Shown here: positions 6,981 to 50,353 of the stretch, piece after piece
How positions within the stretch are numbered: position 1 is the first letter of the stretch
Layout of the letters: every line of letters starts with the position of its first letter
Assembly (NCBI RefSeq): GCF_003205515.1
Contig: NZ_KZ826484.1
Location: 124,001 to 188,000 of the forward strand
Reading direction: 5' to 3'
DNA: 64,000 nucleotides
Origin: Litorivita pollutaquae
GTDB lineage: Bacteria > Pseudomonadota > Alphaproteobacteria > Rhodobacterales > Rhodobacteraceae
Made by a program: the position numbers and the translations under genes
The notes under the pieces: model-generated
Database searches by the model: none
What the model was told of the DNA's origin: nothing
The model's input: only the letters and a program-made list of their open reading frames with translations

Positions 6981-7811
6981 ATGAAAACCGCGCTGTTGCA
7001 GATCACGTCGTCGGATGATCCCGCGCATAACCTTGCGATGATGCGGGCCATGCTGCGCGAGGCGGCGGAGCATGGCGCGGGTTTTGCTTTGTTGCCAGAG
7101 GTGTGCAATTGCCTCTCGACCTCTCGTAGCCATCAAAATGCGGTGCTGCAGCGCGAGGAAGAGGATTTGGTTCTCGCGGGCTTGTGTGACACGGCGCGGG
7201 CGCTGGGTATTTGGGTGCTGATCGGATCTTTGGGGTTAAAGACCGGCGATGCAGGCGGGCGGTTTGCCAACCGGTCGTTTGTGGTCGATCCCGATGGCGC
7301 GGTAAAAGCCCGCTATGACAAACTGCATATGTTTGATGTGCAGGTCAGCGAGACAGAGACCTTTCGCGAAAGCGACGGTTACCGTCCGGGAACACATGCA
7401 CAAATCTGCGAAACGCCCTTCGGTGTGCTGGGCCTGTCGATCTGTTACGATATTCGCTTTGCCTATCTGTACCGCGCCTTGGCCAAGGCGGGCGCGCAGA
7501 TATTGACCGTTCCGGCGGCGTTTTCGCCCGTAACCGGCGCGGCACATTGGGAGCCATTGCTGCGCGCCCGCGCGATCGAGACGGGGAGTTATGTTTTGGC
7601 CCCCGCGCAGGTCGGCGCGCATGATATCAGCCGTGGTAAACCCCGCAGCACCTACGGGCATTCCATGGTGGTGGCACCGTGGGGCGAGGTTTTGCTCGAT
7701 ATGGGAACTGAAACGGGCATCGGGTATGTCGATTTGGACCTTGATGCCGTGACCAAGGCGCGGGCACGAGTGCCGGCCTTGACCCATGATCAGGGCTTTC
7801 GCGGGCCTTGA
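6981..7811 (+). CDS. Nitrilase-superfamily amidase (Nit1/deaminated glutathione amidase-like)
   Basis: A 276-residue carbon-nitrogen hydrolase with the full catalytic triad: E40 in LLPEV, K114 in RYDKLHMFD and C155 in SICYDIRF. The pattern matches Nit1/YbeM-type amidases that hydrolyse deaminated glutathione, a metabolite-repair reaction, which would suit its position right after glutaredoxin. Other omega-amidase substrates are possible. It begins 3 bp after grxC. Confidence 0.85.
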   Translation: MKTALLQITSSDDPAHNLAMMRAMLREAAEHGAGFALLPEVCNCLSTSRSHQNAVLQREEEDLVLAGLCDTARALGIWVLIGSLGLKTGDAGGRFANRSFVVDPDGAVKARYDKLHMFDVQVSETETFRESDGYRPGTHAQICETPFGVLGLSICYDIRFAYLYRALAKAGAQILTVPAAFSPVTGAAHWEPLLRARAIETGSYVLAPAQVGAHDISRGKPRSTYGHSMVVAPWGEVLLDMGTETGIGYVDLDLDAVTKARARVPALTHDQGFRGP

Positions 7812-7845
7812 CGCATGGCGCGCGGGCGTTAAAGCAGTAAGTGTT

Positions 7846-8283
7846 ATGAATGCTACCGCAAATAATGCTCTCGCTGTTGCCTTGTTCAGCGAAATCCTGA
7901 CCGCCGATCAATTGGTGCGCAATCGGCTCAGCCGTGTCTTGCCCAAGGGGATGGAGATCTCGCATTTTTCGGTGCTCAACCATCTGGCGCATGCGGGGGC
8001 GGAACGCAGCCCCGCGCAATTGGCCAAGACATTTCATGTCACCCGAGGCGCTATGACAAATACGCTGCGCAAACTGGAATGGGCGGGCTATGTGCATATT
8101 CGCCCTGATTGGGACGATGCGCGGCGTAAAATGGTCGCCATCAGCCCCGCAGGACGTCAGGCGCGCGAGGCGGCGCTTGCGGCGATTTCACCGATGATCA
8201 CGGATTTGGTCCATGATCTGGGCGGTGAAAAAGTGCGGGCGGTGCTGCCGATTTTGCGCGATCTGCGGGCCAAGCTTGAATAG
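7846..8283 (+). CDS. MarR family transcriptional regulator
   Basis: A 145-residue MarR-type winged-helix protein. The recognition region reads QLAKTFHVTRGAMTNTLRKLE, followed by the wing with D-D-A-R-R-K, both typical. It is probably a dimeric repressor of unknown ligand. The ATG at 7846 was chosen because an earlier in-frame start would overlap the nitrilase gene and has no conserved sequence. It ends 2 bp before the convergent ubiG stop. Confidence 0.85.
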   Translation: MNATANNALAVALFSEILTADQLVRNRLSRVLPKGMEISHFSVLNHLAHAGAERSPAQLAKTFHVTRGAMTNTLRKLEWAGYVHIRPDWDDARRKMVAISPAGRQAREAALAAISPMITDLVHDLGGEKVRAVLPILRDLRAKLE

Positions 8284-8285
8284 GG

Positions 8286-9035
8286 TTAAGACGTCGGCTT
8301 GAGGCTGGCGGTGACGTAATTGACGCTCAAATCGCGGTCCGACAGGGACCATTTCCATGAGATCGGGTTGAACACGAATCCCTTGCGGTCCACCGGTTTC
8401 AATCCGGCAGTCTCGATCAATTTATAAAGCTCGTCCGGCGTGATGAATTTGCTCCACTCATGGGTGCCTTTGGGCAGCCAGCGCATGATCACTTCGGCAC
8501 CGACGATGGCGACGGCGAAACTTTTGGGATTGCGGTTGATGGTCGAGCAAATCATCAACCCGCCGGGTTTGAGCAACATCCGGCAGGCGGTGGTATAGGC
8601 CTGCGGGTCGGAGACATGTTCGACCACTTCCATATTCAGCACCACATCGAATTCTTCGCCGTCATCGGCCAAGGATTCGGCGGTGACATTGCGATAGTCG
8701 ATAGTGAGGCCAGAGGATTCGGCGTGGACTTGCGCGACGGGGATGTTGCCTGCGGCCGCATCGGCGCCAACGACTGTCGCGCCAAGGCGGGCCATAGGTT
8801 CGCTGAGCAATCCGCCGCCGCATCCGATATCCAAAATGCGCAGTCCCTCAAACGGGCGGGCCGTCTCCAGATCGCGACCAAACTCGGCGGCGATTTGCGC
8901 CGTGATATAATCCAACCGGCAGGGGTTGAGCATATGAAGCGGCTTGAACTTGCCGTTCGGATCCCACCATTCGGCGGCCATGGCTTCGAATTTTGCGACT
9001 TCGGCGGGATCGACGGTGTTTTGGGCGGTTTGCAT
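8286..9035 (-). CDS. ubiG: Ubiquinone biosynthesis O-methyltransferase UbiG
   Basis: A 249-residue class I methyltransferase. SAM motif I is [10 protein letters not shown], and [10 protein letters not shown] is the UbiG post-I signature. It performs both O-methylations in ubiquinone synthesis at the inner membrane. The start at 9035 follows AGGGAGAG at good spacing; an upstream in-frame ATG at 9065 is less likely. It is divergent from the proline iminopeptidase gene. Confidence 0.94.
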
Positions 9036-30258: not shown

Positions 30259-30330
30259 TTCTGGTATCCTTACAGATAAATGCCTCTCGTTGGGGAGAGG
30301 TGTCCCGCAGCCGGACATAAGCGCGAATAT
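30259..30330 (-). promoter_or_regulatory. Possible structured serC leader
   Basis: Immediately upstream of serC the minus strand has a 6-bp stem with a 6-nt loop (30283-30288 with 30295-30300) just before the ribosome-binding AAGGA, and a weaker GTCC/GGAC pairing further 5' (30302-30305 with 30312-30315). A conserved serC RNA motif has been described upstream of serC in alphaproteobacteria; this leader is in the right place, but I cannot check its consensus. Confidence 0.3.
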
Positions 30331-31914: not shown

Positions 31915-32072
31915 TGTCGTTCTCTTCCATCCGGACTATGACCGTCGGCTCTGGAATCGCACCAGATCTGCTGACCCTTTGCTCCAATGACTTGGTTGCA
32001 AAGGCGCTCGCGGGCTTACGCTTTCGCGCTTACCGCCGGTGGGGAATTGCACCCCGCCCTGAGAACCGGCCC
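31915..32072 (-). ncRNA. FMN riboswitch (RFN element)
   Basis: The minus strand carries the characteristic RFN blocks in order: GGGGTGCAATTCCCCACC, then GGCGGTAAG, then AGGGTCAGCAGATC, TGGTGCGATTCCAGAGCC, GACGGTCATAGTCCGGATG and finally GAAGAGAACGAC. The outer ends can pair to close the multi-stem junction. It lies directly upstream of ribH. In the 77 nt between aptamer and start I see no clear terminator, so control is more likely on translation initiation; that is inference. Confidence 0.95.
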
Positions 32073-39318: not shown

Positions 39319-39687
39319 ATGGTCGACGAAAAACCCAAAAAGCGCAATCGCCAACAGGTCTATACTTTGCTGGTCGAGATTGGCCGCAAGGACGGCGACG
39401 GGCTGCCCGAAGGGGCGACTGGCGCGGCGTTGATGGTCTATGCCTCTGGCATCGACGAGGCCGAAGCTGTGCGCGAAACCGTTGCGATCCTTAAGCAAGC
39501 CGATACCGCGCCGCTGGATGTGACCGGATATGGCACGTTGGATGAGCGGCTCGCGGAAGGTCACGATATCTCCGACGAAGAGCGCGCCTTGATGGGCCGT
39601 GCTTTGGCGGAAAATTCGGTGATCGTGGCACAGATGACGCCGTTTTTTGAGGATACCCCGCGTGCCGAAGGTGGCGCGTTGCATTGA
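39319..39687 (+). CDS. Hypothetical cytoplasmic protein
   Basis: A 122-residue acidic protein without signal or membrane segment. The basic start MVDEKPKKRNRQQVYTLLVE leads to ALMVYASGIDEAEAVRETVA, then a stretch around VTGYGTLDERLAEG. GCGGAGGATCC before ATG 39319 is a good ribosome-binding site. I do not recognise the family, though such short proteins beside a rhodanese gene seem familiar in Rhodobacteraceae. Function unknown. Confidence 0.68.
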   Translation: MVDEKPKKRNRQQVYTLLVEIGRKDGDGLPEGATGAALMVYASGIDEAEAVRETVAILKQADTAPLDVTGYGTLDERLAEGHDISDEERALMGRALAENSVIVAQMTPFFEDTPRAEGGALH

Positions 39688-39727
39688 GATCGCAGCTACG
39701 ATCGCAATAGAATCAAGGACGAAGCGC

Positions 39728-39744
39728 CGGCACAGATGACGCAA
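39728..39744 (+). promoter_or_regulatory. Possible sigma-54 promoter upstream of the nirB leader
   Basis: CGGCAC-N7-GCAAG has the required GG-N10-GC spacing (GG 39729-39730, GC 39741-39742) and a perfect GGCAC -24 element; the -12 element reads ACGCA instead of TTGCA. An alternative sigma-70 -10 hexamer TATAAT lies at 39804-39809 but without a convincing -35. Confidence 0.35.
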
Positions 39745-39932
39745 GGACAGCCTCGCCCGTTATATTGTGCTTAGAATTTGGTGAGGGCCACACCACATCC
39801 GCCTATAATTTAATCAAACTTGGCTTGGCCGCGTTTTGCCGATGCTGCAGTGCAACAAAGGTGTTGCGGCATGGTGGAAGCTGCCTAATGCTGATTTTAA
39901 CGGGGCCGGTTGGCAGACGCCAATGCCCCTCG

Positions 39933-39998
39933 ATACCGCAATGGCGCGGTATATTTCCGAATACATGCCCCTGATGGGCCTTGCAGCAACGGCGCTGC
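39933..39998 (+). promoter_or_regulatory. ANTAR-type dual-hairpin leader of nirBD
   Basis: Two hairpins with 6-nt loops stand in tandem in the 438-bp gap before nirB. P1 has a 7-bp stem (39933-39939 with 39946-39952) and loop AATGGC. P2 has a stem of at least 5 bp (39983-39987 with 39994-39998) and loop AACGGC. Both loops carry A at position 1 and G at position 4, the signature of RNAs bound by ANTAR-domain antiterminators such as NasT. A third hairpin follows at 40008-40023 but without a T-run, so the terminator part is not proven. Nitrate/nitrite-responsive antitermination is the inference. Confidence 0.6.
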
Positions 39999-40125
39999 GA
40001 TTTCGCTGACCGCATTCGCGGTTCGGGAGACCGTAAGTTGTGCCCAATTGCACCCCACGTCTTCCATTTGATTTCGCTGCTGCGCCGGAGAGGTCCGGTT
40101 TGCACCCCCGACCCCGGAGATTGAA

Positions 40126-42582
40126 ATGACCCAAGAAAAACAACGCCTTGTGATCGTCGGTAACGGCATGGCCCCTGGCCGGATGCTCGAAGAATTGTTT
40201 GATCGCGCGCCCGATGTGTACGATGTGACGATTTTTAACGCCGAGCCGCGCGTGAATTATGACCGGATCATGCTTTCGCCGGTTCTGTCGGGCGAGAAGA
40301 CCTTTGAAGACATCGTGATTCATGACGATGCCTGGTATGCGGAGCGCGGCGTCACCCTGCATCGCGGCGAGAAGGTCGCCAAGATCGACCGCGCGGCCAA
40401 GATGGTGACCTCCGAGGGCGGGCTTGCCGCGTCTTACGACAAACTTGTGATCGCAACGGGGTCTTCGCCCTTTATCATTCCGGTGCCGGGGCACCAGTTG
40501 CCCGGCGTTCTGGCCTACCGCGATCTCGATGATGTGGACGGGATGCTGGGCGCCTGCGCCAAGGGCGGACGCGCGGTGGTCATCGGCGGTGGTTTGTTGG
40601 GTTTGGAGGCCGCAGCGGGCCTCAAGGCGCAGGGCATGGACGTGACGGTGTTGCACCTGATGCCAACCCTGATGGAGCGTCAATTGGATGCGGCGGCGGG
40701 CTATCTTTTGCAACGTGAATTGGAAAGCCGCGGCATTGATGTGCGTTGCGGTGCCAACACCAAAGCGATCCACGGCGAAACCTGCGTCGAAGCGGTCGAA
40801 TTGGAAGACGGCACGATGATTGATGCCTCTTTGGTGGTCATGGCCGTGGGCATCCGCCCAAGCGCCGATTTGGCCAAAGAGGCGGGGCTTGAGATCGGGC
40901 GCGGGATCGTGACCGATGCGACGCTGCGCACCTCCGACCCTGACGTGTTTTCCGTCGGTGAATGCACCGAGGTTGATGGCCGGGTTTATGGGCTTGTTGC
41001 GCCGCTCTACACCATGGCAAAGGTCGCGGCCGAGCATTTGACCGGCCCCTCCGAGGCTGCATTCAAACATGCCGAGACCCCGACCAAATTGAAGGTCACG
41101 GGAATCAATCTTTATTCCGTCGGCGAATTTGGCGACGCTGAAGGCACCGAAGACGTGGTTTTGCGCGATGCGATGCGCGGCACATACAAGCGTGTGATTC
41201 TCAAGGATAACAAGGTGATCGGCGCGGTGCTATACGGCGATGTGGCCGATGGCATGTGGTATAACGAGATGCTGAAATCCGGCGAGGATGTCTCGGAATT
41301 CCGCGACACGCTGATCTTTGGCCAAGCCTATCAAGGCGGCGGCGGGGCGGACCCCTTGGCGATTGTCGCCAATCTGGCCGATGATGCGGAAATCTGCGGT
41401 TGTAACGGGATTTGCAAAGGCGACATCGTCAATGCGATCACGGAAAAGGGTTTGGCTTCGTTGGATGGCGTGCGCGCTCATACCAAGGCGTCGGCCTCTT
41501 GCGGGACGTGCACGGGATTGGTCGAAGACCTGATGACCCTGACGCTCGGCGATGATTTTGCGGCGGGGGCTCCGGCGGGCATGTGCGGATGCACCACCCA
41601 TAGCCACGGCGATGTGCGCCGGTTGATCAAAGCCAAAGAATTGAAATCCATCCCCGAAGTAATCCAGGAATTGGAATGGACAACGCCGGAAGGCTGCGCC
41701 AAATGCCGCCCTGCGCTAAACTACTATCTGGTTAGCGATTGGCCCGGTGAATATGTCGATGACATGCAGTCGCGGTTCATCAACGAGCGCGTGCATGCGA
41801 ACATCCAAAAAGACGGCACCTATAGCGTTGTGCCGCGGATGTTCGGCGGCATCACCACGCCGGATGAATTGCGCGCCATTGCCGATGTGGCCGATAAATT
41901 CGAAATTCCCACGGTCAAAGTCACCGGCGGTCAACGGATCGATTTGCTCGGCGTGAAGAAAGAAGACTTGATCCCGGTTTGGGATGACCTGAACAAAGCC
42001 GGGATGATTTCCGGCGCGGCTTACGCCAAGGGTCTGCGCACGGTGAAAACCTGCGTCGGGTCGGATTGGTGCCGGTTCGGGACGCAAGACAGCACCGGTT
42101 TGGGCATCAAGCTTGAACAACTGTTGTGGGGCGCTTGGTCGCCTGCAAAACTCAAACTGGCGGTGTCCGGTTGCCCGCGCAATTGCTCGGAAAGCACCTG
42201 CAAGGACATTGGTATCATCTGCGTCGATAGCGGGTATGAGATCCTGTATGGCGGCGCGGCGGGGCTGCACATCCAAGGCACGACCATGCTCGGCAAAGTG
42301 CCCACAGAACAGGATGTTTTGGAAACCGTTGGCGCGCTTACGCAATATTACCGCGAGACCGGGTATTACCTTGAACGGATCTACAAATGGGCCGACCGGA
42401 TCGGATATGATCACATTAAATCAGTGATTTACGACGATCTGGAACAGCGCGCAGCCTATTTTGACCGCTTCATTTTCTCGCAAAAATTCGCACAAATCGA
42501 CCCATGGGCCGAACGGGTGGCCGGCGCCGAAGCGCATGAATTTGCCCCCCTGGCCGATCTGACGCTGGAGGCAGCAGAATGA
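40126..42582 (+). CDS. nirB: Assimilatory nitrite reductase [NAD(P)H], large subunit
   Basis: An 818-residue NirB that reduces nitrite to ammonium. It has an N-terminal FAD/NAD(P)H domain (RLVIVGNGMAPG; VVIGGGLLGLE), two BFD-like [2Fe-2S] segments (CGCNGICKGD with CGTCTG near 425-465, then MCGC with CAKC), and the sulfite/nitrite reductase ferredoxin-like and siroheme domains. The 4Fe-4S/siroheme cysteines are C643 and C649 in CVGSDWC and C683 and C687 in CPRNC. CCGGAGA precedes the ATG. nirD overlaps its end by 4 bp. Confidence 0.97.
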   Translation: MTQEKQRLVIVGNGMAPGRMLEELFDRAPDVYDVTIFNAEPRVNYDRIMLSPVLSGEKTFEDIVIHDDAWYAERGVTLHRGEKVAKIDRAAKMVTSEGGLAASYDKLVIATGSSPFIIPVPGHQLPGVLAYRDLDDVDGMLGACAKGGRAVVIGGGLLGLEAAAGLKAQGMDVTVLHLMPTLMERQLDAAAGYLLQRELESRGIDVRCGANTKAIHGETCVEAVELEDGTMIDASLVVMAVGIRPSADLAKEAGLEIGRGIVTDATLRTSDPDVFSVGECTEVDGRVYGLVAPLYTMAKVAAEHLTGPSEAAFKHAETPTKLKVTGINLYSVGEFGDAEGTEDVVLRDAMRGTYKRVILKDNKVIGAVLYGDVADGMWYNEMLKSGEDVSEFRDTLIFGQAYQGGGGADPLAIVANLADDAEICGCNGICKGDIVNAITEKGLASLDGVRAHTKASASCGTCTGLVEDLMTLTLGDDFAAGAPAGMCGCTTHSHGDVRRLIKAKELKSIPEVIQELEWTTPEGCAKCRPALNYYLVSDWPGEYVDDMQSRFINERVHANIQKDGTYSVVPRMFGGITTPDELRAIADVADKFEIPTVKVTGGQRIDLLGVKKEDLIPVWDDLNKAGMISGAAYAKGLRTVKTCVGSDWCRFGTQDSTGLGIKLEQLLWGAWSPAKLKLAVSGCPRNCSESTCKDIGIICVDSGYEILYGGAAGLHIQGTTMLGKVPTEQDVLETVGALTQYYRETGYYLERIYKWADRIGYDHIKSVIYDDLEQRAAYFDRFIFSQKFAQIDPWAERVAGAEAHEFAPLADLTLEAAE

Positions 42583-42911
42583 ACATCCAAGTATCCGCAG
42601 ACGCCGTGCAATGGACTCTTGTCGGGGCCGTGACCGACATTCCGCGCCAAGGTGCACGCTGCGTTAAACGCGGCGATATGACTGTCGCCGTGTTTCGCAC
42701 ATCGGACGACCGCGTGTTCGCGCTCGAAGACAAATGCCCGCATAAGAACGGGCCGCTCAGTCAGGGGATCGTGCATGACGGATGCGTTACATGCCCCCTG
42801 CACAATTGGGTGATCTCGCTGGAAACCGGCTCAGCCCAAGGTGCCGATGAAGGGCAGACCGCCAGCTTTCCCGTCAAAGTCGAAGACGGCCGCATCTATC
42901 TCTCTCTTTAG
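42579..42911 (+). CDS. nirD: Nitrite reductase small subunit NirD (Rieske type)
   Basis: A 110-residue NirD with intact Rieske [2Fe-2S] ligands: C-P-H in DKCPHKNGPLS and C-P-L-H in VTCPLHNW. Some NirD proteins, such as that of E. coli, lack these ligands; here the cluster should be present. It partners NirB. The ATGA overlap with nirB shows translational coupling. Confidence 0.93.
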   Translation: MNIQVSADAVQWTLVGAVTDIPRQGARCVKRGDMTVAVFRTSDDRVFALEDKCPHKNGPLSQGIVHDGCVTCPLHNWVISLETGSAQGADEGQTASFPVKVEDGRIYLSL

Positions 42912-42951: not shown

Positions 42952-43791
42952 ATGTCCTATATCCAACCTGCCGAGTTCGCATCGAAAATGGTCGATGCCG
43001 GAGAATCCAAGATTTTCATGGCCACCAAGGATACGCTGATCCGCGCCTATATGGCCGGTGCGATCCTTGCATTGGCGGCTGCATTTGCGGTGACCATCGC
43101 GGTGAACACCGGCAACTTTCTTGTGGCGTCCCTGTTGTTCCCTGTCGGGTTCTGCACGCTTTATCTTTTGGGGTTTGACCTGCTGACCGGTGTGTTCACG
43201 CTTGCACCCTTGGCGGTGATCGCCAAACGTCCGGGGTGCACTTGGCCCGGTGTCTTCCGCAATTGGGGGTTGGTATTCGTTGGTAACTTTGCCGGTGCCT
43301 TGACCACGGCGGTGATGATGGCGATCATTTTCACCATGGGCTTTAGCCAAGAACCAAACGCCGTGGGGCAAAGGATCGGACAGATCGGCGAAGCGCGCAC
43401 CTTGGGTTATGCCGAAGCGGGCGGCGCGGGGATGTTGACGGTTTTTGTGCGGGCTGTGATGTGCAACTGGATGGTGTCAACCGGCGTTGTCGCGGCGATG
43501 ATGTCATCGTCGGTGTCGGGCAAGATCATGGCCATGTGGATGCCGATCATTGTCTTCTTCTACCTCGGGTTTGAACATTCGATCGTCAATATGTTCCTCT
43601 TCCCCTCGGGCATCATGCTGGGCGGTGAATTCACATGGGTCGACTATTTCGCCTATAATGAAATCCCTGTTGTTTTGGGCAATCTCGTGGGCGGCCTGAC
43701 CTTTGTTGGCGGCATGATCTACGCCACCCATTTCAAGGAATCCCCTAAGCGTAAGCCGATCAAGGACGCCTCGACCGTCGCAGCCGAGTAA
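42952..43791 (+). CDS. Formate/nitrite transporter family channel (NirC-like)
   Basis: A 279-residue FNT-family pentameric channel with six membrane segments. Hallmarks are GFDLLTGVF, the second half-helix RAVMCNWMV, and the central histidine in GFEHSIVNM. In this context it should move nitrite across the inner membrane, importing the NirBD substrate. It follows nirD by 40 bp and ends at a terminator, so nirB-nirD-fnt is one unit. Confidence 0.94.
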   Translation: MSYIQPAEFASKMVDAGESKIFMATKDTLIRAYMAGAILALAAAFAVTIAVNTGNFLVASLLFPVGFCTLYLLGFDLLTGVFTLAPLAVIAKRPGCTWPGVFRNWGLVFVGNFAGALTTAVMMAIIFTMGFSQEPNAVGQRIGQIGEARTLGYAEAGGAGMLTVFVRAVMCNWMVSTGVVAAMMSSSVSGKIMAMWMPIIVFFYLGFEHSIVNMFLFPSGIMLGGEFTWVDYFAYNEIPVVLGNLVGGLTFVGGMIYATHFKESPKRKPIKDASTVAAE

Positions 43792-43863: not shown

Positions 43864-45633
43864 ATGCCCGAGGATGCCGTGACGATCTCGCCGACCGCGA
43901 CCGCCTTGCAGGGGGACAAACCATCCGGCTTGCAGTTGAGCATTGGACAATTTTCGAGCGCGGGCGTTAAAGCCGAAAACCAAGATGTCTTAGGGGCGAC
44001 CATTCCCCACGGCACGGCGCTGACCCTCAAGGGGGCGGCCTTTGCCATTGCGGATGGGATCAGTTCCAGCCGTGTCAGCCGCGAAGCCGCCGAAGTCGCG
44101 GTACAGGGGGTGATGGGGGATTATTATTGCACCTCCGACGCTTGGTCTGTGAAAACCGCCGCCACGCAGGTGATCAGTGCCAGCAATGCGTGGCTACATG
44201 CGCAAAACCGCCGCGCCCATCTTGAAGAGATCGACCACGGGCGGGTTTGCACGCTGTCGGCTCTTATTTTGAAAAACCATACCGCGCATCTGTTCCACAT
44301 TGGTGACAGCCGGATTGCACGTTTAGCCGGAAGATCGTTGGAACCTTTGACCGAACCCCATCGCGTGGTGATCTCGCCCGGGCAAAGTTACCTCGGGCGC
44401 GCGATGGGCGCTGAAGCACGGGTCGAAATCGACTACCGCGACTTGCCGTTGGCCTTGGGCGATGTGTTTGTGATGACCACCGATGGGGTGCATGAACATC
44501 TCACAGACAAAGATATCGCGGCATTTCTGGCCGCGCAGGGGGATCTTGATCTTGTCGCGCGCCGGATTGGCGAGGCGGCTTTGAGCGCCGGAAGCGATGA
44601 CAATCTGACGGTACAGATCATCCGCGTTGACGGATTGCCCGAACGCGATGCGGGGGTTTTGGAGGGGGCGGATCAATTGCCAATTCCGCCTTTGCCCATG
44701 GATGGCGATGTGATCGACGGGTTTCGTATTTTGCGCCCGATCCACAGCAACGCGCGCAGCCATATCTACCTTGCTGTCGCCCCCGGCGGCGATCAGGTGG
44801 CGTTGAAAATTCCGTCGATGGATTTGCGCGAGGATCCGCAATATCTGCGCCGTTTCGTCATGGAGGAATGGATCGCCCGGCGAATAGACAGCCCGCATGT
44901 CTTGCGCGCCGCCCCGGCGCCAGAGACGCGCAGCGCGCTTTATGTGGTGACGGAATATGTCGAAGGTCAGACCCTTCGCCAATGGATGACGGATCATCCT
45001 GAACCGGATTTAGAGCGGGTGCGCGATATCCTGGAGCAGGTGGTGCGCGGTCTGCGGGCCTTTCATCGTCGCGAGATGTTGCATCAGGATTTGCGCCCCG
45101 AGAATATCATGATCGACACTGCCGGCACGGTGCGGATCATTGATTTCGGGTCAACTTATGTCTCTGGCGTGCAAGAGGCGATGCTTGATCCAGACACGGC
45201 GATTTTGGGAACAATGCAATATACCGCGCCGGAATATTTTGCCGGCGAGCCCGTGAATTGGCGCGCGGATTTGTTTTCGCTCGGGGTGATCGGATACGAG
45301 ATGCTGACAGGGCGTCTGCCCTATGGGCGCGATGTGTCCAAAGTGCGCGCGCGGCGCGATCAAATGCGGCTCAAATACGCGTCGGCGCGCGGCGGGGAGC
45401 GGCCCGTGCCCTATTGGATAGATGCCGCATTGCGCCGTGCGGTGCATCCCGATCCGATGCGGCGCTATCCGGTTTTGTCGGAGTTTATCGCCGATCTGCG
45501 CCGCCCCGGCGATGCCGCCCGCGCCGAACGTCATGTGCCGTTGGCGGAACGCGATCCGGTGCGATTTTGGAAAACTCTATCGGGGCTTTTGGCGATTTTG
45601 TCATTGGCTCTGGGATTGCAACTTTTGAAATGA
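43864..45633 (+). CDS. Fused PP2C phosphatase / Ser-Thr kinase, C-terminally membrane-anchored
   Basis: A 589-residue protein combining two opposing activities. Residues about 25-255 are a PP2C phosphatase with metal acids D41 (AENQD), D64 (AIADG), D207 (TTDG) and D245 (SDDN), plus HIGDSRIARL. Residues about 285-550 form a protein kinase with K315 (VALKI), H-Q-D at 407-409 (DLRPEN) and D427 (DFG). The glycine-rich loop is degenerate and the HRD Arg is Gln. A single hydrophobic tail (about 570-588) anchors it with the enzymes in the cytoplasm. Lying between the nitrite channel and cyanase, it probably controls nitrogen uptake or assimilation. Similar fusions occur near nir/nas genes elsewhere. 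Confidence 0.9.
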   Translation: MPEDAVTISPTATALQGDKPSGLQLSIGQFSSAGVKAENQDVLGATIPHGTALTLKGAAFAIADGISSSRVSREAAEVAVQGVMGDYYCTSDAWSVKTAATQVISASNAWLHAQNRRAHLEEIDHGRVCTLSALILKNHTAHLFHIGDSRIARLAGRSLEPLTEPHRVVISPGQSYLGRAMGAEARVEIDYRDLPLALGDVFVMTTDGVHEHLTDKDIAAFLAAQGDLDLVARRIGEAALSAGSDDNLTVQIIRVDGLPERDAGVLEGADQLPIPPLPMDGDVIDGFRILRPIHSNARSHIYLAVAPGGDQVALKIPSMDLREDPQYLRRFVMEEWIARRIDSPHVLRAAPAPETRSALYVVTEYVEGQTLRQWMTDHPEPDLERVRDILEQVVRGLRAFHRREMLHQDLRPENIMIDTAGTVRIIDFGSTYVSGVQEAMLDPDTAILGTMQYTAPEYFAGEPVNWRADLFSLGVIGYEMLTGRLPYGRDVSKVRARRDQMRLKYASARGGERPVPYWIDAALRRAVHPDPMRRYPVLSEFIADLRRPGDAARAERHVPLAERDPVRFWKTLSGLLAILSLALGLQLLK

Positions 45634-45700: not shown

Positions 45701-46150
45701 ATGGATGTATTGACCCGCGAGGATGTGACTGCCTTGATCATTTCCGCCAAGAAACAGGCCGGATTGACATGGGAGGGGATCGCCGAAACCATCGGCATGT
45801 CGCCGGTTTGGACCCATTCGGCGGCTATGGGGATGAACGCGATGCCGGCCGATAAGGCCGCTGCATTGGTCGCGGCGCTTGGTTTGCCACAAGAGGCGCA
45901 GGGGCTTCTTGAAGACAGCCCGACAAAGGTTTGGGAGCAAACCGTGCCGACCGATCCGTGTATTTACCGGCTCTATGAAATCGTGGGTGTTTACGGCCCG
46001 ACGATCAAAGCCTTGATCCATGAGAAATTTGGCGATGGCATCATGTCCGCCATTGATTTTGACATGCAGCTGACGCGCGTGGAACATCCCAAAGGTGACC
46101 GCGTCAAAATTGAAATGTCCGGCAAATACCTTGGCTACAACAGCTGGTAA
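45701..46150 (+). CDS. cynS: Cyanate hydratase (cyanase)
   Basis: A 149-residue cyanase that converts cyanate and bicarbonate to ammonium and carbon dioxide. The catalytic residues R90, E93 and S116 have exactly the E. coli spacing (R96, E99, S122), within IYRLYEIVGVYG and GDGIMSAIDFD. The N-terminal helix-turn-helix-like domain is present. No cynA-type transporter lies beside it; its position after nirBD fits a shared nitrogen-scavenging regulon. AAAGGAAA precedes the start. Confidence 0.95.
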   Translation: MDVLTREDVTALIISAKKQAGLTWEGIAETIGMSPVWTHSAAMGMNAMPADKAAALVAALGLPQEAQGLLEDSPTKVWEQTVPTDPCIYRLYEIVGVYGPTIKALIHEKFGDGIMSAIDFDMQLTRVEHPKGDRVKIEMSGKYLGYNSW

Positions 46151-50277: not shown

Positions 50278-50353
50278 GGGCCTGTAGCTCAGTTGGTAGA
50301 GCAACTGACTTTTAATCAGTAGGTCTCCGGTTCGAACCCGGACGGGCTCACCA
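50278..50353 (+). tRNA. tRNA-Lys (TTT)
   Basis: A 76-nt cloverleaf: D-arm GCTCAGTTGGTAGAGC, anticodon stem-loop CTGACTTTTAATCAG with anticodon TTT, T-arm CCGGTTCGAACCCGG, and encoded CCA at 50351-50353. The acceptor pairs GGGCCTG with CGGGCTC, including wobble pairs at positions 2 and 6. Confidence 0.96.

Follow-up and report, generated by a model that had tools for sequence, protein, structure and literature searches.

A putative ANTAR-target leader RNA, probably acting through its second hairpin, precedes nirB, an FNT channel gene and cynS in a member of the Rhodobacteraceae

Sequence comparison gives good support for the conclusion that the 438-nt leader of nirB in the 64-kb stretch of DNA analysed here (the window) is a target RNA for an ANTAR protein of the NasT type. 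The leader occupies positions 39688..40125 of the + strand, between a small ORF that ends at 39687 and the nirB start at 40126, and it contains two hairpins, P1 and P2. We consider it probable that this leader is read by the NasT protein of the same genome, and that it controls nirB, nirD, an FNT channel gene, a PP2C/kinase fusion gene and cynS by way of P2. In the proposed mechanism, nitrate or nitrite would cause NasS to release NasT, the released NasT would hold P1 and P2, formation of P2 would prevent its 3' strand from pairing with sequence downstream, and expression of the five genes would follow. We infer the single transcript, the binding of NasT, the signal and the output, the last of which does not resemble a standard intrinsic terminator. 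An earlier note on this DNA had proposed a NasT-type target, and none of the results that it named as contrary to that reading was found: the stems covary, A and G are conserved at the first and fourth loop positions (A1 and G4), and ANTAR and NasS-like genes are present in the genome. The NasT-target reading is therefore supported.

P1 (ataccgc-AATGGC-gcggtat, 39933..39952, loop at 39940-39945) and P2 (ttgcagc-AACGGC-gctgcga, 39981..40000, loop at 39988-39993), both on the + strand, were each identified by motif scan, folding and covariation. Both stems measure 7 bp, with one G-U pair in P2, in agreement with the stems of 7 and at least 5 bp described previously, as is the leader length of 438; the gap between the hairpins is 28 nt, not the 30 nt given previously. 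We scanned for paired hairpins 0-60 nt apart whose 6-nt loops carry A1 and G4 and whose stems have at least 5 bp, 3 or more of them G-C. P1-P2 was the sole such pair on the + strand of the window, the - strand had none, and dinucleotide-shuffled leaders gave 0/5000. Scan, shuffles and relatives thus confirm the tandem A1/G4 hairpins with loops AATGGC and AACGGC on which the earlier note was based. The RNAfold centroid contains P1 and P2 and, between them, a small GCCC/GGGC hairpin (39967..39979, +); roughly 10 of the 13 nirB leaders described below appear by eye to have a hairpin in the P1-P2 linker. Predicted folds also contain a hairpin P3 (GACCGC-AUUC-GCGGUU, 40008..40023, +), with no U-run on its 3' side. 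The folding energy of the 93-nt hairpin stretch is ordinary (z -0.40), and the evidence for the hairpins is therefore their conservation rather than their energy. No Rfam family reached threshold in the leader, and a lax search returned two chance-level matches, both on the opposite strand. Elsewhere in the window, Rfam places an FMN riboswitch (31915-32070) and a serC leader (30259-30310) on the minus strand, and there is a tRNA at 50278-50350. The small ORF directly 5' of the leader (39319-39687) has no Pfam or NCBIfam match.

We looked for relatives of the leader by way of NirB. Among the best 80 loci examined from a longer list in a search of genome contigs, six (L005-L010) encode a NirB of at least 78% identity, and the other 74 do not exceed 72%. 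Of 394 genomes searched from the window's family, Rhodobacteraceae, eight, the window's own counted, encode a NirB that matches at E <= 1e-180 with 73% identity or more. The nirB leader of G042 is identical to that of L010, and the resulting nirB-clade set has 13 distinct leaders, the window's among them. All 13 contain the P1-P2 pair, which was recognised in eight by the motif script and in L009, L088, L117, L118 and L119 by eye; P1 of L118 has one mismatch. Upstream of the 74 distant nirB loci (L011-L084), a motif pair was found within 700 nt, or less at contig ends, only at L080, where the loops are unlike. Changes on both sides occur at 5/10 predicted pairs among the 13 nirB leaders. Leaders found before other genes, described below, enlarged the set to 25 (13 nirB, 7 + 2 + 2 FNT and 1 cynS); the statistics on P2 and P1 competition, start access and U counts that are given for 21 leaders are earlier ones, for the leaders then known. 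Over the 25 leaders, changes on both sides occur at 6/10 stem pairs, well above slid registers, and there are 24 double-change cells against a shuffled mean of 4.4, with 0/500 shuffles reaching 24. The covariation of the stems that had been proposed as a check was thus found. A1 and G4 are invariant in both loops of 25/25 leaders, which were partly picked via the same motif. The same partial selection inflates the proportion of paired cells (99.2%), so the double changes are the better evidence.

Five genes follow the leader on the + strand: nirB, for the nitrite reductase large subunit (40126..42582; TIGR02374, 890 bits); nirD, for the Rieske-type small subunit (42579..42911; TIGR02378); the gene for an FNT (formate/nitrite) channel (42952..43791; PF01226, below NCBIfam cut-offs); a PP2C phosphatase/Ser-Thr kinase fusion (43864..45633; PF13672 and PF00069); and cynS, for cyanase (45701..46150; PF02560, TIGR00673). 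The target unit of nirB, nirD and FNT that had been named previously holds as to its genes and is larger than was stated, since it also includes the PP2C/kinase fusion and the cyanase. In a tblastn map, the same gene order was seen in L005-L008, L160 and L161; within the sequence covered, L010 is without cynS and L009 without the last three genes. The fusion, which may regulate the FNT channel, sits between the channel and cyanase genes. The FNT-kinase pair recurs: many genomes of the window's family have it, as do genomes from two other families of the class.

The same leader occurs before other genes of this unit. We built a covariance model, R1, from the 13 nirB leaders and ran it on the 394 family genomes. 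At E <= 1e-6, R1 recovered 7/8 source genomes and gave nine further matches, of which seven precede FNT (G306, G330, G225, G230, G188, G202 and G130), one precedes cynS (G039, contig 34) and one is an orphan (G214; L158 4930-5003, minus strand) with no module gene near, perhaps a remnant after gene loss. The seven FNT units are without nirBD of the window's kind within the 6-7 kb covered; the kinase fusion is present in 7/7 and cynS in 6/7. On 250 genomes of the same class, R1 had two matches beyond the window's family (E <= 2e-4), each preceding FNT-kinase genes, and a motif scan added two further FNT leaders, in G039 and G292. G039 (L205, L157) has separate leaders before nirB, FNT and cynS. 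Weak R1 matches (L135-L149) were judged by eye only. We also surveyed the 28 genomes with an FNT of the window's type at E <= 1e-85. The P1-P2 pair precedes the operon in 16/28; in G127 and G344, P2 is good but P1 is poor. In 9/28 the FNT gene lies behind a more distant nirB (62-67%) whose start is beyond the sequence covered, and in G187 there is no pair within 600 nt; R1 scored at most 13.2 bits at these ten remaining loci. The leader behind nasS in the window's own genome is missed by R1 (9.0 bits, E 0.9), indicating that R1 is not a general ANTAR model and that further NasT leaders may exist unseen.

A candidate reader is encoded in the same genome. One ANTAR protein scores above the cut-off (79.5 bits, in an ORF of up to 208 aa), and its gene is followed by genes for a NasS-like PF13379 protein, transporters, a short FAD oxidoreductase and a molybdopterin oxidoreductase that resembles nitrate reductases. 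The ANTAR/NasS-like pair therefore lies in a nitrate operon unlinked to the nirB leader, which bears out the expectation that nasT and nasS would be found elsewhere in the genome. We infer the names NasT and NasS from domains and neighbours; no NCBIfam model matched the ANTAR protein at 1e-10, and its closest solved relatives include NasR (4akk) and AmiR (1qo0). ANTAR genes are present in 15/15 leader genomes versus 185/394 in the family sample (p 8.7e-6, with genomes treated as independent of kinship). In G499, from another family, nasT-like (51% identity) and nasS-like (43% over 226 residues) genes are divergent beside the leader-FNT-kinase unit, and in G016 a divergent nasT starts about 0.2 kb from the leader.

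We modelled competition for P2 by comparing folds with P2 forced and P2 blocked, against shuffles. Combined by Fisher's method with related leaders taken as independent, the effect was significant for 21 leaders at 95 nt (1.9e-5) and at 150 nt (4.7e-5), and for 25 leaders at 75 nt (2.2e-4). At 75 nt, p was below 0.1 in 8/25 leaders and above 0.8 in 4/25 (G306, G230, G330 and the FNT leader of G039). The P1 control gave a Fisher value of 0.13 at 95 nt, where four leaders were below 0.1, and of 0.995 at 75 nt. The modelling thus supports downstream competition for P2 across the leader family; in the window alone it was not significant (p 0.53, 0.069 and 0.287 at 75, 95 and 150 nt, respectively). 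The G+C-rich sequence makes pairing cheap, which counts against such competition. With a limit of 120 nt, the best competing strand ends 47-64 nt past the P2 loop in 14/21 leaders; the window has its best competitor at +100 and a weaker one at +57. The candidate proximal anti-P2 strand of the window (40027..40044, +; MFE of -2.3 kcal/mol, best of 40 end points) is predicted, when P2 is blocked, to pair with 39991-40004, giving a compound hairpin that carries P3 at the tip. The candidate distal strand, GCGCCG (40082..40087, +), would pair with CGGCGC at 39990-39995 (-5.0 kcal/mol at 101 nt), and it is the best of many end points, with a duplex p of 0.10 and a 150-nt ensemble p of 0.287. We did not accept duplex tests of the P2 arm as proof, because their Fisher value (3e-4) was only somewhat better than that of the P1 control (7e-3).

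The sequence TGACAGAAATCGCCGC, or one close to it, occurs 56-71 nt past the P2 loop in L007, L087, L117 and L153, and is complementary to the 3' arm of P1 and the linker. This anti-P1 element is strong in L007, L087 and G230 (p 0.020, 0.042 and 0.006, respectively), and L117 shares the layout (p 0.216). A general anti-P1 element was rejected, the P1 Fisher value being 0.13 at 95 nt.

In a textbook attenuator, the anti-P2 hairpin would be an intrinsic terminator whose formation NasT prevents, as in leaders behind nasS. We therefore compared the two kinds of leader. The nasS-linked set (L085 and L190-L202), from the same genomes as the leaders above, consists of 14 nas loci; the analysis covers 12 of them and leaves out L193 and L195, in which no P2 could be recognised. 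The gene after the leader is nrtA-like in 11/12, with L202 the remaining one. L085 also encodes, at 7664-8914 and beside a nitrate reductase gene, a short NirB-like protein consisting of the FAD/NAD part only. In the 12 nasS-linked leaders the competing strand ends 45-67 nt past the P2 loop, much as in the 14/21 leaders above, which speaks for the textbook arrangement, as do tails with 5 U in 10 nt in L119 and G130, a run of 4 U in L007, and U7 after a distant candidate strand in G202. By contrast, the 10 nt after the competing strand contain 5-9 U in the 12 nasS-linked leaders and 0-5 U in the 21 nirB, FNT and cynS leaders (Mann-Whitney p 3e-6), and 4 or more consecutive U lie within 12 nt in 11/12 of the former (the exception is L197) and 1/21 of the latter (L007). 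Around the window leader (39400-40400) there are 0 terminator-like sites, consistent with the earlier remark that a T-run terminator after P2 is not obvious. These differences indicate that the receptor is common to both kinds of leader and that the terminator, as a rule, is not. The antitermination proposed previously, in the sense of an intrinsic terminator, is hence not supported in the window, and we consider the textbook arrangement unlikely there.

A translational switch, in which loss of P2 hides the ribosome-binding site and NasT binding frees it, fits a few short leaders. In L005, L008 and L009 the P2 loop is 62-67 nt from the start, and the competing strand is the ribosome-binding site itself; blocking P2 raised the cost of opening the start region by 6.2, 8.1 and 6.3 kcal/mol, respectively (p 0.010, 0.003 and 0.003 against full shuffles). 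L118 showed an increase of 3.4 kcal/mol (p 0.080, or 0.013 with the last 20 nt fixed). However, this short-leader class was spotted by eye before testing, and with the last 20 nt fixed the p values were 0.49 for L005, 0.027 for L008 and 0.037 for L009. An earlier test, on the unpaired probability of the Shine-Dalgarno sequence, was negative in 14/14 leaders tested (best p 0.10, in L009), with L010 and L118 strongly opposite, and the 107-nt cynS leader of G039 showed no effect on start access. In the window, the opening cost changed by -0.9 kcal/mol (p 0.80) and predicted access to the Shine-Dalgarno-like GGAG of nirB (40116..40119, +) was unchanged by P2, so we regard a translational switch there as improbable. 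A translational model for all leaders was rejected because the start-access tests fit only three short leaders. The unpaired-probability test gave no support to a switch of five segments that inspection by eye of the window, L118 and L010 had suggested (P2 arm, anti-P2, hairpin, anti-Shine-Dalgarno), and this model was also rejected.

That the hairpins are a chance or DNA-level element unrelated to ANTAR would agree with their ordinary folding energy and the lack of an Rfam match, but it is very hard to reconcile with the covariation, the invariant A1 and G4 and the co-occurrence with ANTAR genes, and we give it almost no weight.

For the preferred reading, a NasT-target leader acting through P2, attenuation by Rho or another factor would be favoured in long leaders such as the window's, and capture of the ribosome-binding site in the three short nirB leaders. 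A search of the 300 nt before P1 in 21 leaders, with one published pattern for NtrC and one for sigma-54, gave no match. Judged by its sequence, the window leader is a member of the ANTAR-target class with predicted binding, and a variant of the nas-type attenuator, since the terminator feature of the latter is absent. More tentatively, such leaders may constitute a second class of NasT target without an intrinsic terminator, in which one receptor serves several outputs and nitrate or nitrite also governs cyanate breakdown and the channel. Behind nasS the output would be a U-run terminator; short nirB leaders would use the ribosome-binding site, with translation activated by the ANTAR protein, and long leaders a factor-dependent stop. 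Control by nitrate or nitrite would reach a membrane channel with its own phosphatase/kinase. A nitrate-controlled RNA switch would in that case extend from nitrate and nitrite genes to cyanase and the FNT channel.

ANTAR targets are known as dual hairpins with hexanucleotide loops carrying A1 and G4 (PMC3369931, PMC8164766), and the genes known to have NasT leaders include nas and nos (PMC5424462, PMC6759348). A link between NasT and cyanase was not found in the literature searched, mostly open-access papers and partly at the level of titles. In Bradyrhizobium, narK is reported to be up in a nasT mutant (PMC6759348), and a leader with NasT-type hairpins therefore need not be NasT-activated. 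The nasA leader of Paracoccus denitrificans likewise has NasT, the sensor NasS and hairpins before nitrate/nitrite assimilation genes (PMC3795266, PMC5424462); in Paracoccus, nitrate or nitrite splits NasS-NasT, and NasT binds the nasA leader (PMC3795266). That leader lies between nasTS and nasA, whereas the window leader is not linked to nasTS, stands before nirBD-FNT-kinase-cynS and shows no U-rich terminator. The leaders behind nasS share with the window leader the A1/G4 hairpin loops and a predicted strand downstream that could pair with P2, and differ in the U-run after the competing strand, present in 11/12 of them and generally absent from leaders of the window's type. The contrast within one genome, between a nasS-linked leader with a terminator and a nirB leader without, lets one ask whether ANTAR proteins act beyond intrinsic antitermination. 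For Pseudomonas aeruginosa, a title indicates antitermination within the nirBD operon, there nirBD-PA1779-cobA (Romeo et al. 2012, cited in PMC6759348). Translational ANTAR RNAs of actinobacteria also have dual A1/G4 stem loops and involve the ribosome-binding site, which is often inside the dual stem, and binding represses in mycobacteria (PMC8164766). In the three short leaders, NasT binding would instead free the site; any action of these leaders on translation would be activation by ANTAR rather than repression.
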